The notes beneath the pieces are model-generated. The model was not told where the DNA came from and searched no databases. It worked only from the letters and a program-made list of their open reading frames with translations. A DNA stretch of 58,006 nucleotides from Smithella sp. (GTDB lineage Bacteria > Desulfobacterota > Syntrophia > Syntrophales > Smithellaceae): positions 1 through 58,006 of the forward strand of contig JAAZHX010000066.1 in NCBI GenBank assembly GCA_012510495.1. Reading direction: 5' to 3'. The position numbers and the translations under genes were made by a program. Positions 37,292 through 43,230 of the stretch are shown here, piece after piece; positions within the stretch are counted from its first letter, which is position 1; every line of letters begins with the position of its first letter.

Positions 37292-37429
37292 ATGATTGAC
37301 ATGGGATTGGCTGTAAAGATCGCCGGAGGCGGATTTGGCCTGGTTTTCTTTCTTCTTACGATTCTTTGGTTTACCATATGGCTGACCAGAATCGTCGCGG
37401 AAAAGACAACAAAGTTTATGCGCAAGTAG
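37292..37429 (+). CDS. OadG-like small gamma subunit of a Na+-translocating decarboxylase
   Basis: A 45-residue protein starting MIDMGLAVKIAGGGFGLVFF and continuing LLTILWFTIWLTRIVAEK, that is, one membrane segment followed by a short basic end. This is the pattern of OadG/GcdC-type gamma or delta subunits, which anchor the biotin carrier and carboxyltransferase to the membrane subunit. AGGAGGAGG (37271-37279) lies 11 to 12 bases upstream. It is followed 47 bases later by the beta subunit gene. It is shorter than classic OadG, which also has a long proline-rich tail. Confidence 0.68.
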   Translation: MIDMGLAVKIAGGGFGLVFFLLTILWFTIWLTRIVAEKTTKFMRK

Positions 37430-37476: not shown

Positions 37477-38820
37477 GTGTTTGGCCTTTTAGAAAGCGGT
37501 TTTCAGTTTTTTACGTGGGGTAACGCCCTGATGATCCTCATCGGCGGCGTTTTTATTTATCTGGCGATTGCAAAAAAAATGGAACCTCTTATTTTGCTTC
37601 CTATCGGCTTCGCCATCATGCTCGTTAATTTACCCGTTGGGGGATTGATGGATTATGAGCATGAGATGAAAGCAAAGAAATCAGGGATCATCAGTCAAAT
37701 CTCCGTGGAGAAGGGCAATGTTTTTGATAAAGACGCTGTTGTTGTACAGACGGACACAGGAGACATTGCCTCACCGGTTTTCGGGCGGGTCAAAGAAATT
37801 AAAGTAAAAAAAGGTCAGCACGTCGAAGCAGGCGATGTCATCGCCGTTATGCTCACCCAGCAGCAGACCAACCAGGCGGAAGTTCCGACAAAACCGGTCG
37901 GGTTGCTGGCAATCTTTTTCTCCTTTGGCATTATGTGGCAGATTCTTCCGCCCCTTATTTTCCTGTGTCTCGGGGCGCTGACGGATTTCGGTCCCATGCT
38001 GGCCAATCCAAAAACGCTTCTTCTGGGCGCCGCCGCTCAGTTCGGTGTTTACTTTGCCTTTTTCCTGTCCCTTCTGTTCGGCTTTTCCTTCAACGAGGCA
38101 GCTTCCATCGGCATTATCGGGGGCGCCGAGGGACCGACGACTATTTATGTTACGGCGCAGCTGGCGCCGCATATTATCGGCGCGACGGCGGTGGCCTGTT
38201 ACTCTTACATGGCCCTGGTTCCGCTGATTTTGCCCCCCGTCATCAAGCTGCTGACGACGAAAAAGGAGCGCGCGATTTACATGAAGCCGTCGCTGCGGCA
38301 AGTGTCGAAACTGGAGAAAATCCTTTTCCCGCTTGTTACCACCATAATCGTAATTCTCTTTGTCCCTGCTTCTGCTCCGCTGATCGGCTGTTTTATGCTG
38401 GGCAACCTTTTCAGGGAAAGCGGCGTTGTGGAGCGACTCAGCCAAACGGCACAGACAGTTTTTATCGACGTGCTGACCATCATCCTGACGGTTTCCATCG
38501 GCGGCGCCATGGTTGCGGAAAACTTCCTCCAGGCCAAGACGCTGCTCGTTCTGATTCTCGGGGTTGTTTCATTTGCCAGTGCGGCCGCAGCCGGTGTCAT
38601 TCTGGCGAAAATCATGAACCTGTTCCTGAAGGAAAAAATCAATCCGATGATTGGCGCAGCGGGTGTATCGGCGGTGCCCATGTCTGCACGGGTGGTCCAG
38701 GTGATGGGTCAACAGGAAAACAAAAAGAACTTTCTGCTGATGCATGCGATGGGGCCTAACGTTGCCGGGGCCATCGGGGCCGCTATCGCCGGCGGCGTGT
38801 TCATCGGTATTCTGGGGTGA
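37477..38820 (+). CDS. Na+-translocating decarboxylase beta subunit with an inserted biotinyl/lipoyl-like domain
   Basis: A 447-residue membrane protein of the OadB/GcdB/MmdB family. The pump core has LTDFGPMLANPKTLLLGAAA, GIIGGAEGPTTIYVTAQLA and AGVSAVPMSARVVQVMGQQE, conserved in the family, with about ten membrane segments. After the first membrane segments, residues about 60-137 hold an extra soluble domain: SGIISQISVEKGNVFDKDA, then GDIASPVFGRVKEIKVKKGQ, then HVEAGDVIAVM. This is the pattern of a biotinyl/lipoyl barrel-sandwich domain but without the EAMKM biotinylation site. The start is GTG at 37477 with AGGA upstream. The alpha and biotin-carrier subunits are not adjacent. Confidence 0.88.
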   Translation: MFGLLESGFQFFTWGNALMILIGGVFIYLAIAKKMEPLILLPIGFAIMLVNLPVGGLMDYEHEMKAKKSGIISQISVEKGNVFDKDAVVVQTDTGDIASPVFGRVKEIKVKKGQHVEAGDVIAVMLTQQQTNQAEVPTKPVGLLAIFFSFGIMWQILPPLIFLCLGALTDFGPMLANPKTLLLGAAAQFGVYFAFFLSLLFGFSFNEAASIGIIGGAEGPTTIYVTAQLAPHIIGATAVACYSYMALVPLILPPVIKLLTTKKERAIYMKPSLRQVSKLEKILFPLVTTIIVILFVPASAPLIGCFMLGNLFRESGVVERLSQTAQTVFIDVLTIILTVSIGGAMVAENFLQAKTLLVLILGVVSFASAAAAGVILAKIMNLFLKEKINPMIGAAGVSAVPMSARVVQVMGQQENKKNFLLMHAMGPNVAGAIGAAIAGGVFIGILG

Positions 38821-38991: not shown

Positions 38992-41900
38992 ATGAAAGCA
39001 GAATCAAAATCCCCGGCCGGCAATGGCCGGTGGATCTCTTCAGCATTAAAGGTGAATCTGGAGCGCACGGCGGCGGATGTTCAGATCCCGCAGCAATATG
39101 CTCCGATCCTCTCGATTGTCAAAGACCGTTACGGATTGCAGAAAAAAACCCGCGAGCTTCTCACCGAACTCAATCATCCTTACGTCAACTGGGACTTCGT
39201 GCTCCGGGAGCTCAAGTCCATCTCCATCGGCAATTTTCACATTTGCAACCGCCATCCCGACGGGCTCGCCGGTTTGTGGATACTGCTGACGATTTATTTC
39301 GATATTCTGAAATCCACGGCCGGCGAAGAAGTGAAAGACAGCGCACTGCACTACCTGTTCGACTACGCGGACACGGTGATCCTGCACAGCAAGGAGTTTC
39401 TGGAGAGGAATCTGTCGCTGTTCCCCCCCCTGATCGAATTCCTGGCGGAGCTGGCGGACGGCGAATCGGCTCTGTTTAAAAAATGCTCTTCCTATCTGAA
39501 AAGAATCCTCCGGACGGCGGCCGACAGGAACGTGGATCTGGTCACACCGGCATTCGACGCGCTGCTCTACAAAATGTTCCGCGTGACCTACGTTTTCTGG
39601 CTGAATCAACCCGATCCCGCGTTATGGCTGGTGGCCGAACGCAAGGCCGAGACGCCGCCGAATGAAACCCCTTATCTGGAATTGATCCGGCCGCTTTCTC
39701 ATCACCGGTTCCGCAAGCTGATGCTGGAGATCGAAGCGCTTCGTCCCCGGGACGGCGAAAAAGCCGGGGCGCATCTCCGGGACTTTTTGGCCCTTCCGGA
39801 TTATTTTCAGATTCTCGACACCTACCTTCGTGTCGCCTCCGCGCTGGAAAAAGCCGAAGCCTACGCGAACCGTCACCTCGTGAAGCTGGATTTTCTCTTC
39901 GGCGTTATGACGGCGCCGGGTCTGCAGGACCTCCATGCCGGCGCCATGCGGGAAATCAATGCGTCGCTGAAACTTGTTTTTCAAGAGGAAAAGAAAGAGA
40001 ATCTGGATATTATTATAAGGAAAATTTTCAGTTTCCTGAAAAAGAACACAGCCCGGAGTGAATTCCGCAGCGCGAGCATCGACTGTATCCTCACGGCGGC
40101 CCGGGAAGTCTTTGCGCAAAACGACCACCCCCTGGTGGAAATGTTCATGGACGAACTGATCGCCTACGGATTTGAATATCCGGAGATCCGGGGATCGACG
40201 GCCGAATGGCAGGTGCGGGTCAATCCCGAACATATCCGGACGATCCGCGCCTGGCTGGAAATCATCGCCCTGAAGCCGCGCTGGACGAAAAGGCTCGTTT
40301 CCGCGCTGATTATTCATCTGAAAATCGGCGGCATTTTCATCCGGGACACGGACCTGATTCAACGCGACATTTCCCGCTTGCTCAACGCGGACATTGCCCC
40401 GGCCTACAGCCTGATCAAGCAGCTTTTGCGTCTGTTCCCCGTGTACTTCAGCGAAATCGGCGCCGAAGGCGAACTCAGGGACCTGACGACCCGGGTGGAT
40501 GAGTTGTCCTGCCGCAACGACCGCCTGATCGATTTTTTCCGCAAACAGTCCCACGTCGAGAGCAACAGCCTGCTGGTCGAATTTATCGAGGATATTTTCC
40601 GCTTCTGGGTTTCCGGAGAAAAAAAAGCCATCCGCAAGCATGTTCCCGATGAAGTCTATGATCAGGTGGCCGGCGAGGGGCTGTATTTCGACGGCATGCA
40701 TCGGGCGCTGATCCACCTTTTTGAGGGCGCCGGAAATCAACCGGGGAAATTTCTGGAATGGGATCCGGAGAAAATTGCCGGGGAAATTTCCCGGATTCAG
40801 AATATTTCCGAGACGGACCGGGAGCGCGCGTCGCTCATGATCCGCATTTATCAGCTGATTTACAAGAAATACCATCCGCGGTACTATAATCTGTTGGGCG
40901 ATCTGGAGTCCGCCGGCGTTTTTACCGCGCAGGATCTTGTGTCGCTGAAACGGTCGCTGGCCGATAAAAACCATTACCGAAGTCTGAATGTCATTCTGAA
41001 ATGCCTCGGTTCGCTCAAGACCCAAATTCTTTCCGAAAAGAAAACCCGCCCTTTTGAAAACATCTACTACAAAAGGCACATTGCCGCGGGGATTCCATCC
41101 ATGTATGGAACCTACCACGAGGAAAAATTTGACGCGCTGGGGTTTTCCCTGCGCCTGGAGAGCCTTGCGGGAATGCTCTTTGAAGAGCTGATTCAATCCC
41201 TGAATCTGCAGTTTATCACCAAGCGCACCATCATCAGGGTCCATACCTATCTGTGGACCTATCTGAACGCGCTGGATCTGGAAGGGATTTCCACCGAAGG
41301 GCTGGTGGCCAAAGTCCGGTACATCACCAGCGCGCTGCCCATCAAGCAGTTTTCCATGGAGCAGTATCTGGATATTTTCCGGTTCATCTCCCGGGGGATT
41401 CAGGATGTCATCCGGGATTACTATATCGACGCCCACAGCGTCAATTTGCCGGTGATTCTCCGTCAGCTTCAGGCGCAGACGGATCCACCCGACGGCAAGC
41501 AGGACGAGGCCCGGATGGAGGAGTTCATCTATCGGCAATCGGAGAATTTTCTCCGGGGCATGATCTCGTCCGCCTTCGGACTGCAGGTGCTGGACAATTT
41601 TGTGCACACCGTCATCAAAACGCTCAACGCGGAGTTGGAAAAGTTCAAGGACAACAAGCGGATTGTCAACCTCCTGATGGATTACAATCCGGATCTGGCC
41701 GTGTCTCCCATCTACAGTAAAAACCCGAAAATGGACAACCAGATCCTGCTGGGCAACAAAGGCTATTTCCTCAAGCAGCTTGTTTCGTTCGGGTTCCAGG
41801 TGCCGCCGGGCTTTGTCATCACCACGGAAGTGTTCCGGGGATTTGACGCAGTTTATGGATACAAGTACATTTTCCGGGATCTGGCCCGGCGGGTCAACAG

Positions 41901-43230
41901 GGAAATCGCCGCGCTGGAGCGGAAGACGGGCCGCCGTTTCGGAGACCCCGCAAATCCTCTACTCTTGTCGGTGCGAAGCGGCGCGACGATTTCGCTGCCC
42001 GGCATGATGCGTTCTTTTTTAAATGTCGGCATCAACGCCTCGATTGCCGAAACCCTCAGCGCCAAAAAAGATTTCCAGTGGGCGGCCTGGGATTCCTACC
42101 GCCGTTTTCTTCAGACCTGGGGGATGTTCCAGGGGATGAGCCGCGACTTCTTCGACGCCATCATGGATGGCTTCAAACAGAAGCATGGCGTGCAAAGAAA
42201 AATTCAATTTCCGCCCGGGATGATGAAGCAGATCGCTCTGGCGTATAAACAGGGGATTCTGGACAGCGGCATTCCGTTGTCGGATAATCCGCTCCGGCAG
42301 CTGCGTCATGCGGTTTTAAAGGTTTTTGATTCCTGGTATGCCGAGCAGGCGCGCATCTACCGCCACCAGATGCATTTGTCCGATGCGTGGGGGACCGCCG
42401 TCATCGTGCAGGCGATGGTCTTCGGCAACCTCCACGAGCGATCCGGCTCGGGCGTGATTTTTACCCGTGATCCGAAAAGCGCTTCCTCCGATGTGGCCCT
42501 TTACGGGGATTTCATCTTCGGCGTTCAGGGGGACGATATCGTTTCCGGGCTTGTCGAAACGCATCCCATCTCCGAGCGCCAGCGGCTTACCGAACAGCGC
42601 AACAAGGGAATTTCCCTGGAAGCGGACTTTCCGGACATCTATGCCGAACTGGTCAAAACCGCGGAAACGCTGATTTATGAAAAGGGCCTGAACCACCAGG
42701 AAATAGAATTTACCTTTGAAGGCCCGCAAAAAGAGCATTTGTTTCTGCTGCAGACGCGGGACATGGATCAGACCCAGGCAAAAAACCTGCGGCGCTTTAA
42801 AGAGACGGACTTCTTGCACGAGTCCATGCTGGGGACAGGAATTGGCGTCTCCGGCGGCGCCCTGTGCGGCCGGGTCGTTTATTCCGAAAAAGACATTCAG
42901 CAGTTTCGCCTAACGGAGCCCGAAACGCCGCTCATTCTGATCCGACCCGATACGGTGCCCGATGATGTCGGCGTCCTTTTGCAGGTGGAAGGGCTGCTTA
43001 CCGCCAAGGGCGGAGCGACCTCTCATGCCGCCGTTACTATTCCGCAGCTGGGCAAAGTCGGGGTGGTGGGGCTCAGCAAACTGAAGGTCTATGAAATGGA
43101 AGGCTATGCGACCCTGGAGAACCACACGATCCGAAGCGGAAATTTTATCGCCATTGACGGCTGGAGCGGCGCTTTGTATCTCGGGAAGCATGATCTGGAG
43201 CCGGCGCCCTACGCTTCCGTTATTCTGTAG
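38992..43230 (+). CDS. Large PEP synthase/PPDK-like protein with a long unassigned N-terminal region
   Basis: A 1412-residue protein. Residues 1-900 show no family I recognise and are mostly helical. From residue about 914 comes the PEP/pyruvate-binding ATP-grasp domain of pyruvate phosphate dikinase and PEP synthase (LGNKGYFLKQLVSFGFQVPP, LLLSVRSGATISLPGMM, SGSGVIFTRDPKS). Near residue 1340 is the phosphohistidine swivel domain (TAKGGATSHAAVTIPQ) with the conserved His. The PEP-binding TIM barrel is absent, so this cannot be a complete PEP synthase. It may phosphorylate another substrate from ATP, like rifampin phosphotransferase or glucan dikinases. It stands alone, with a terminator after it. 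Confidence 0.82.
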   Translation: MKAESKSPAGNGRWISSALKVNLERTAADVQIPQQYAPILSIVKDRYGLQKKTRELLTELNHPYVNWDFVLRELKSISIGNFHICNRHPDGLAGLWILLTIYFDILKSTAGEEVKDSALHYLFDYADTVILHSKEFLERNLSLFPPLIEFLAELADGESALFKKCSSYLKRILRTAADRNVDLVTPAFDALLYKMFRVTYVFWLNQPDPALWLVAERKAETPPNETPYLELIRPLSHHRFRKLMLEIEALRPRDGEKAGAHLRDFLALPDYFQILDTYLRVASALEKAEAYANRHLVKLDFLFGVMTAPGLQDLHAGAMREINASLKLVFQEEKKENLDIIIRKIFSFLKKNTARSEFRSASIDCILTAAREVFAQNDHPLVEMFMDELIAYGFEYPEIRGSTAEWQVRVNPEHIRTIRAWLEIIALKPRWTKRLVSALIIHLKIGGIFIRDTDLIQRDISRLLNADIAPAYSLIKQLLRLFPVYFSEIGAEGELRDLTTRVDELSCRNDRLIDFFRKQSHVESNSLLVEFIEDIFRFWVSGEKKAIRKHVPDEVYDQVAGEGLYFDGMHRALIHLFEGAGNQPGKFLEWDPEKIAGEISRIQNISETDRERASLMIRIYQLIYKKYHPRYYNLLGDLESAGVFTAQDLVSLKRSLADKNHYRSLNVILKCLGSLKTQILSEKKTRPFENIYYKRHIAAGIPSMYGTYHEEKFDALGFSLRLESLAGMLFEELIQSLNLQFITKRTIIRVHTYLWTYLNALDLEGISTEGLVAKVRYITSALPIKQFSMEQYLDIFRFISRGIQDVIRDYYIDAHSVNLPVILRQLQAQTDPPDGKQDEARMEEFIYRQSENFLRGMISSAFGLQVLDNFVHTVIKTLNAELEKFKDNKRIVNLLMDYNPDLAVSPIYSKNPKMDNQILLGNKGYFLKQLVSFGFQVPPGFVITTEVFRGFDAVYGYKYIFRDLARRVNREIAALERKTGRRFGDPANPLLLSVRSGATISLPGMMRSFLNVGINASIAETLSAKKDFQWAAWDSYRRFLQTWGMFQGMSRDFFDAIMDGFKQKHGVQRKIQFPPGMMKQIALAYKQGILDSGIPLSDNPLRQLRHAVLKVFDSWYAEQARIYRHQMHLSDAWGTAVIVQAMVFGNLHERSGSGVIFTRDPKSASSDVALYGDFIFGVQGDDIVSGLVETHPISERQRLTEQRNKGISLEADFPDIYAELVKTAETLIYEKGLNHQEIEFTFEGPQKEHLFLLQTRDMDQTQAKNLRRFKETDFLHESMLGTGIGVSGGALCGRVVYSEKDIQQFRLTEPETPLILIRPDTVPDDVGVLLQVEGLLTAKGGATSHAAVTIPQLGKVGVVGLSKLKVYEMEGYATLENHTIRSGNFIAIDGWSGALYLGKHDLEPAPYASVIL

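Follow-up and report, generated by a model that had tools for sequence, protein, structure and literature searches.

In the beta subunit of the Salmonella OAD (StOAD, 6IWW), the region between T2 and T3' forms domain E, which PMC7274780 describes as four solvent-exposed, poorly conserved helices, one of them contributing slightly to the trimer interface. The same paper names Glu40 (before T2) and Thr148/Asp149 (after T3) as residues of the cytoplasmic face, in a list that also holds cavity residues such as Ser419. Residues 416, 419 and 423 are spaced so as to lie on one helix face, and Ser419 touches the tip that bears Asp203. Glutaconyl-CoA and methylmalonyl-CoA decarboxylases, whose beta subunits belong to TIGR01109, work with a separate carrier. 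For the C. symbiosum GcdB, PMC7145394 gives 35 and 39 kDa, sizes that would be too small for an insert of the kind described here.

The window analysed in this study is a stretch of 58,006 nucleotides of contig JAAZHX010000066.1 from a Smithella sp. At 37477-38820 (+ strand) it carries a gene with a GTG start that encodes 447 aa, and the coordinates and frame of this ORF were correct. The protein matched OAD_beta (Pfam PF03977) with 488.4 bits (E 1.5e-146, cut-off 31.6) and, like the glutaconyl-CoA and methylmalonyl-CoA decarboxylase beta subunits, TIGR01109 (478.2 bits, cut-off 190.6). A Foldseek search with the AlphaFold2 model of the whole protein returned 6iww_A, the StOAD beta subunit (TM 0.75/0.80), with biotin carriers among the matches too. 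StOAD numbers were assigned by alignment of the window protein to StOAD, which is gapless for residues 8-57 (StOAD 12-61). Glu36, the equivalent of StOAD Glu40, is directly followed by the T2 region (residues 37-57, 37585-37647, + strand; AlphaFold2 helix 37-51). About 80 extra residues follow T2 and occupy the site of domain E, between T2 and T3'. Compared with StOAD, the window protein has the same fold, the equivalents of Glu40, Ser382 and Asn412, and likewise an extra domain at T2-T3'. The two differ in the nature of this domain (four helices in StOAD, a beta barrel-sandwich here), in the replacement of Asp203 by Glu and of Ser419 by Ala, and in the gamma subunit, which has 45 aa in the window system. 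The sequence-only reading had assumed that other family members have only a short loop at this place; this holds for the nearest relatives and fails for the Salmonella OAD with its helical domain E.

Within the whole protein, residues 96-125 matched Biotin_lipoyl (33.1 bits, cut-off 22.1) and residues 97-124 matched Biotin_lipoyl_2 (35.0 bits, cut-off 29.8). When the 81-aa insert piece was given alone, the scores were 39.8 and 43.7 bits. All 12 members of alignment A3, which comprises the window protein and 11 relatives, matched both families at E <= 0.01, and all 12 also matched HlyD_3 and HlyD_D23 at this level. In L094, a main-clade protein from Dehalococcoidia, the insert stayed below both Pfam cut-offs (15.0 and 13.7 bits), so that the domain there rests on alignment. 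AlphaFold2 predicted strands at residues 60-65, 70-75, 88-92, 95-98, 103-108 and 121-127 of the whole protein, with a pLDDT of 83-93 in this block; the best model had a mean pLDDT of 85.4 and a pTM of 0.85, and the five models ranged from 66.6 to 85.4. The domain modelled alone showed nearly the same strands (mean pLDDT 91.0). The barrel-sandwich domain that had been proposed for residues 60-137 or so is thereby borne out by Pfam, AlphaFold2 and Foldseek as an all-beta, not helical, unit at about residues 60-127 (37654-37857, + strand).

The domain alone superimposed on the P. horikoshii biotin carrier (BCCP, 5GUA/2D5D) with an rmsd of 0.6 A over 69 columns (Foldseek match to 5gua, TM 0.90 by target length, 25% identity). 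Unlike this carrier, the insert lacks the MKM lysine, has a shorter turn and is embedded in a membrane protein. The second structural match was the membrane-fusion protein BesA. With the lipoyl domains of BesA and MacA the insert shares the barrel-sandwich fold and, if its sidedness is assigned correctly, the extracytoplasmic location. It differs from them in being attached to a decarboxylase subunit and in lacking the alpha-helical hairpin between the halves of membrane-fusion lipoyl domains, since strands 88-92 and 95-98 are connected by a direct turn in the AlphaFold2 model. A Peptidase_M23 match of the insert alone (37654-37857) was slightly over the cut-off of 28.7 (29.9-30.0 bits) and fell under it in the shorter or whole form; Peptidase_M23 and the biotinyl/lipoyl-type insert have a common fold.

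While the window insert thus has the barrel-sandwich fold and the PF00364 profile of a biotin carrier, the hairpin MKM lysine is missing. In an alignment of 32 inserts, a short turn (TDTGD in the window, residues 92-96, 37750-37764, + strand) stands at the place of the carrier's EAMKM, and none of the 30 main-clade inserts has a Lys at the tip of this turn between the halves. The absence of the biotinyl-lysine motif, pointed out earlier from the letters alone, is confirmed by this. In 10 of the 30 a Lys is located two residues ahead of the tip, within the strand, and the others carry Q, T, R or I; the insert of L100 has a longer turn that contains a Lys. The sole MK[A/M]-type match of the window insert is EMKA, in strand 1. 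Invariant residues of the insert are found mostly at its membrane-proximal ends and in a P..GR loop. The linker from the domain to T3' (37858-37902, + strand) carries a conserved QT...P..P.GL, invariant columns in two insert alignments (A2 and A3), and is shorter in three Dehalococcoidia members.

A circular permutation of a biotin carrier was also considered, as MDYE at the start of the insert resembles MKME. For three inserts, the native and half-swapped forms had similar Biotin_lipoyl scores (40.0 to 40.7, 41.8 to 42.0 and 34.9 to 30.9 bits), and with our own carrier profile the swap improved the best-domain score in 27 of 32 inserts. Scoring of each half against half-profiles favoured the permuted order in no more than 11 of the 32 inserts, or 8 when the motif was left out, and both insert halves were on average most like the second half of the carrier. 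The permutation was rejected, since half-by-half scoring favours the normal order.

The distribution of the insert was surveyed in several genome sets. An OAD_beta match was present in 94 of 149 sampled genomes of the window's order, and 22 matches in 21 of these genomes had insert length, counted by span as matches of exactly 1290 nt, fragments not being judged. The insert is thus restricted to a part of the family and does not occur in all beta subunits. These 22 proteins are gapless in the domain, with a mean pairwise identity of 51% for residues 59-140 and 85% for residues 141-447. The insert is under purifying selection, with a dN/dS of 0.11-0.21 in six of seven comparisons (one saturated, the others with high dS), and the rest of the beta gene gave 0.05-0.07. 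Judged by these comparisons, evolution is faster in the insert than in the core. Forty relatives were obtained from a scan of named genomes, 19 of them with the insert by alignment; the hosts of the 40 were Syntrophaceae including Smithella, other Deltaproteobacteria, Dehalococcoidia, other Chloroflexi, one Planctomycetota and one Acidobacteria MAG. In the class of G149, 103 of 294 genomes had a match and four of these were of insert length, including G149 itself and the already known G155 and G156. An insert-clade profile at E 1e-180 found one of 400 genomes in a Chloroflexota sample, which was the sample's own centre genome, and two of 395 in a sample of the window's phylum, the window genome and one of its genus. 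L100, L101 and L172 carry a diverged insert. In L101 and L172 it exceeds the Biotin_lipoyl cut-off of 22.1 and can be aligned to the insert profile, and in L100 it reached 20.4.

A quick tree with midpoint root was calculated from 104 rows with the insert columns removed; first-set proteins of <=330 aa, window repeats and nine named loci, presumed to be already included contigs, had been left out of the alignment. The 30 main insert proteins formed one group (SH-aLRT 100), next to a group composed mostly of insert-free Chloroflexota proteins. Within the 30, Dehalococcoidia or Chloroflexi MAGs branch off early, and those from Syntrophales cluster together. This branching order suggests a transfer of the insert-bearing gene between Chloroflexota/Dehalococcoidia and Syntrophales, in either direction, provided that the MAG contigs are binned correctly. 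On this tree, Glu at the Asp203 site requires one change and the insert three.

The tiny OadG-like gene that had been noticed upstream of the beta gene is present at 37292-37429 (+ strand) as a truncated OAD gamma subunit of 45 aa, with one TM helix and no room for an alpha-binding tail. Its PF04277 match (20.2 bits, residues 7-42 to profile positions 3-38 of 76) is below the cut-off of 27. Judged by eye, a comparable short ORF precedes the insert gene in 21 of 22 cases. This micro-gamma was rejected as a hallmark of the insert form, since it is also found upstream of many insert-free beta genes. Directly downstream of the beta gene is an ORF of 1412 aa (38992-43230, + strand), PEP-synthase/PPDK-like by eye with a long N-terminal part, and at L060 a homologue of 1412 aa lies at identical spacing (172) 3' of beta. 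The decarboxylase alpha subunit is indeed not nearby, as no Carboxyl_trans or PYC_OADA match was obtained on the window's contig, and no carrier or carboxyltransferase gene was matched in the window. Of the 32 insert loci, 15 have a separate MKM carrier gene close to beta, and so do 31 of the 72 insert-free loci, many loci ending at contig edges; the carrier gene is therefore a family trait and no mark of the insert. In five Dehalococcoidia insert loci the carrier lies 15-19 nt upstream of beta on the same strand. A member of the carboxyltransferase cluster adjoins beta in 6 of 22 loci, that of L047 being assigned by clustering. As in glutaconyl-CoA and methylmalonyl-CoA decarboxylases, the carboxyltransferase beside some window-clade members is mmdA-like or of what we take to be the Gcd type; unlike in those systems, each carrier here is a bare domain of about 71-79 aa. 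L094-L097 and L122 (Dehalococcoidia) share a compact gamma-carrier-beta cluster between genes that by eye are Clp ATPase-like and RadA-like, and no carboxyltransferase was seen beside it.

The window genome (estimated as 100% complete with 6.56% contamination) has two carboxyltransferases on other contigs, one mmdA-like but under the mmdA cut-off (C169) and one further (C147). Other contigs also encode a PycB/5S-like protein (C74), whose ORF contains no carrier domain, and a bare MKM carrier of 71 aa (C90). These transcarboxylase/decarboxylase parts (C74, C90, C147 and C169; L123, L035, L033 and L032) are on separate contigs, none of them beside beta. The carrier and carboxyltransferase genes near relatives, together with the carrier elsewhere in the genome, indicate that the partner of the window protein is probably a separate biotin carrier, as for its insert-free kin. 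Replacement of the carrier by the insert was rejected for the loci with a carrier beside beta and for the window genome, where the carrier is on another contig.

At the position of StOAD Asp203, the window protein has Glu218 (38128-38130, + strand). In the 104-row alignment, all 30 main insert proteins have Glu here, and Asp is present in all 72 insert-free proteins as well as in both divergent insert proteins. A motif tally over 134 distinct proteins, which detects only Asp or Glu and in which the insert was called by protein length, gave Glu in 30, all of which have the insert; the other 104 have Asp, and three of these carry the insert (L100, L101 and L172). The data do not show that insert and Glu became coupled more than once in evolution, as Glu218 has a single origin and Asp is retained in three insert proteins. 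Further residues fixed or nearly fixed in the 30 are Ala435 (StOAD Ser419), Ala432 (Val416), Gly439 (Ala423), Cys241 and Thr338. Ala432, Ala435 and Gly439 (38770-38793, + strand) are found in 30 of 30 proteins of the insert clade, on one helix face beside the cation site; insert-free rows have T/S at 435 and A/T at 439, and four of them have Ala at 432. Given the one-face spacing and the contact of Ser419 with the Asp203-bearing tip, the smaller side chains at 416, 419 and 423 may make room for the longer Glu. Since the Asp203 ligand for Na+ of Na+-pumping decarboxylases is replaced by Glu218, we do not class the window protein as a proven Na+ pump. The equivalents of Glu40, Ser382 and Asn412 are kept, and the protein probably works like a Na+-pumping decarboxylase. 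Among the titles and abstracts listed by the literature searches, there was no description of a biotinyl-fold domain in a beta subunit or of a natural Asp203-to-Glu exchange.

In insert-free groups the hairpin at the cation site reads IGACDGPT or VGGADGPM, with several variants within one order. Hairpin-variant groups comprised 20 Syntrophales-relative beta proteins (e.g. L014, L016, L017, L019-L026, L028-L031, L074-L077) and 14 further proteins (e.g. L063-L072, L079-L081 and a second copy in L056), the ranges L073-L078 and L063-L072 including a few members of other hairpin types.

The insert is located between two helices whose far ends are cytoplasmic in StOAD and is therefore most likely extracytoplasmic; with cavity residues in the same cytoplasmic-face list, this argument is good, not strict. 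In the charge pattern, the T5-T6 linker is strongly K/R-rich (7.3 K+R versus 2.4 D+E) and T1-T2 weakly so, the T2-T3 loop of 74 other proteins (72 insert-free, two divergent) has on average 0.7 K+R versus 3.1 D+E, and loops T3-T4 and 343-354 show no charge bias. StOAD homology and charge pattern together indicate that the insert is probably extracytoplasmic. An older topology paper, by Jockel in 1999, reportedly places the N terminus inside.

We assign a probability of about 0.5 to the reading that the gene encodes a biotin-dependent decarboxylase beta subunit in which the cation site is remodelled and an extracytoplasmic biotinyl-fold collar takes the place of domain E. The product would be the membrane carboxybiotin decarboxylase and cation pump subunit, in which the T2-T3' loop appears to have turned into a barrel-sandwich domain without biotinylation motif, most likely on the extracytoplasmic face. 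Three copies per beta trimer would form a collar above the central outward-facing cavity, and if the small interface role of domain E is assumed, this collar may steady the trimer or limit its motion. A soluble biotin carrier, as a separate protein, would still serve catalysis on the cytoplasmic side. The first cation site would have been rebuilt by the exchange of Asp203 for Glu and by shrinkage of StOAD residues Ser419, Val416 and Ala423 on one helix face, which might shift ion affinity or specificity.

The sequence-only reading had suggested that the domain docks the biotin carrier or mimics it. A cytoplasmic domain of this kind, or an inert mimic in the carrier's site, would fit the best structural match 5gua, itself a biotin carrier whose Pyrococcus protein is named methylmalonyl-CoA decarboxylase gamma chain in other PDB entries, as well as the gamma subunit without room for an alpha-binding tail. 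However, the short gamma occurs without the insert too, the domain lies between two membrane helices with far ends at the cytoplasmic face, and relatives have an acidic loop with few K/R; by StOAD homology and charge, the domain should lie across the membrane from the carrier's site. The presence of a separate MKM carrier gene beside beta in 15 of 32 insert loci also speaks against this suggestion, and we regard docking or mimicry as unlikely. Binding of an envelope partner by an extracytoplasmic domain (an adaptor, peptidoglycan, the S-layer or another membrane complex), as by membrane-fusion lipoyl domains, is a less likely alternative. It is suggested by BesA as second structural match and by the HlyD_3 and HlyD_D23 matches in 12 of 12 A3 members, but the fusion-protein alpha-hairpin is absent and the conserved neighbours seen are gamma, the carrier and, in some loci, a carboxyltransferase.

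The substitutions Glu218 and Ala435 could also mark an uncoupled or inactive pump, a subunit shifting to another role. According to PMC7274780, D203A abolished Na+ binding in StOAD and Ser419Ala is said to cost 90% of the activity of Klebsiella OAD, although substitutions of Ser419 and six other residues are called not severe alongside this figure. The low dN/dS of the core (0.05-0.07), the retained equivalents of Glu40, Ser382 and Asn412 and the carrier and carboxyltransferase genes near some members argue against a loss of function. The D203E variant of Klebsiella OAD is reported to be inactive, which would agree with such a loss. On balance we consider an inactive pump improbable. A bolder proposal, which we find doubtful, concerns altered coupling in a subfamily exchanged between Dehalococcoidia and Syntrophales: the Glu site would move another ion or another stoichiometry (e.g. 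H+), and a trimeric biotinyl-fold ring would act as outward gate or seal of the elevator.

Under the preferred reading of a collar-bearing beta subunit with a remodelled cation site, a known pump is found in variant form in an anaerobic syntrophic bacterium, with a biotin-carrier-shaped extra domain without biotin site, probably on the outer side of the membrane, and with a Na+ site that is altered in the clade. Most likely, a biotinyl fold is employed here outside the compartment of biotin chemistry. Syntrophs live near the energetic limit, and the ion coupling of decarboxylation therefore matters to them. The clade represents a natural test of whether carboxybiotin decarboxylation strictly depends on Asp203 and of which ion this residue binds, and likewise a natural test of the role of the variable T2-T3' domain.
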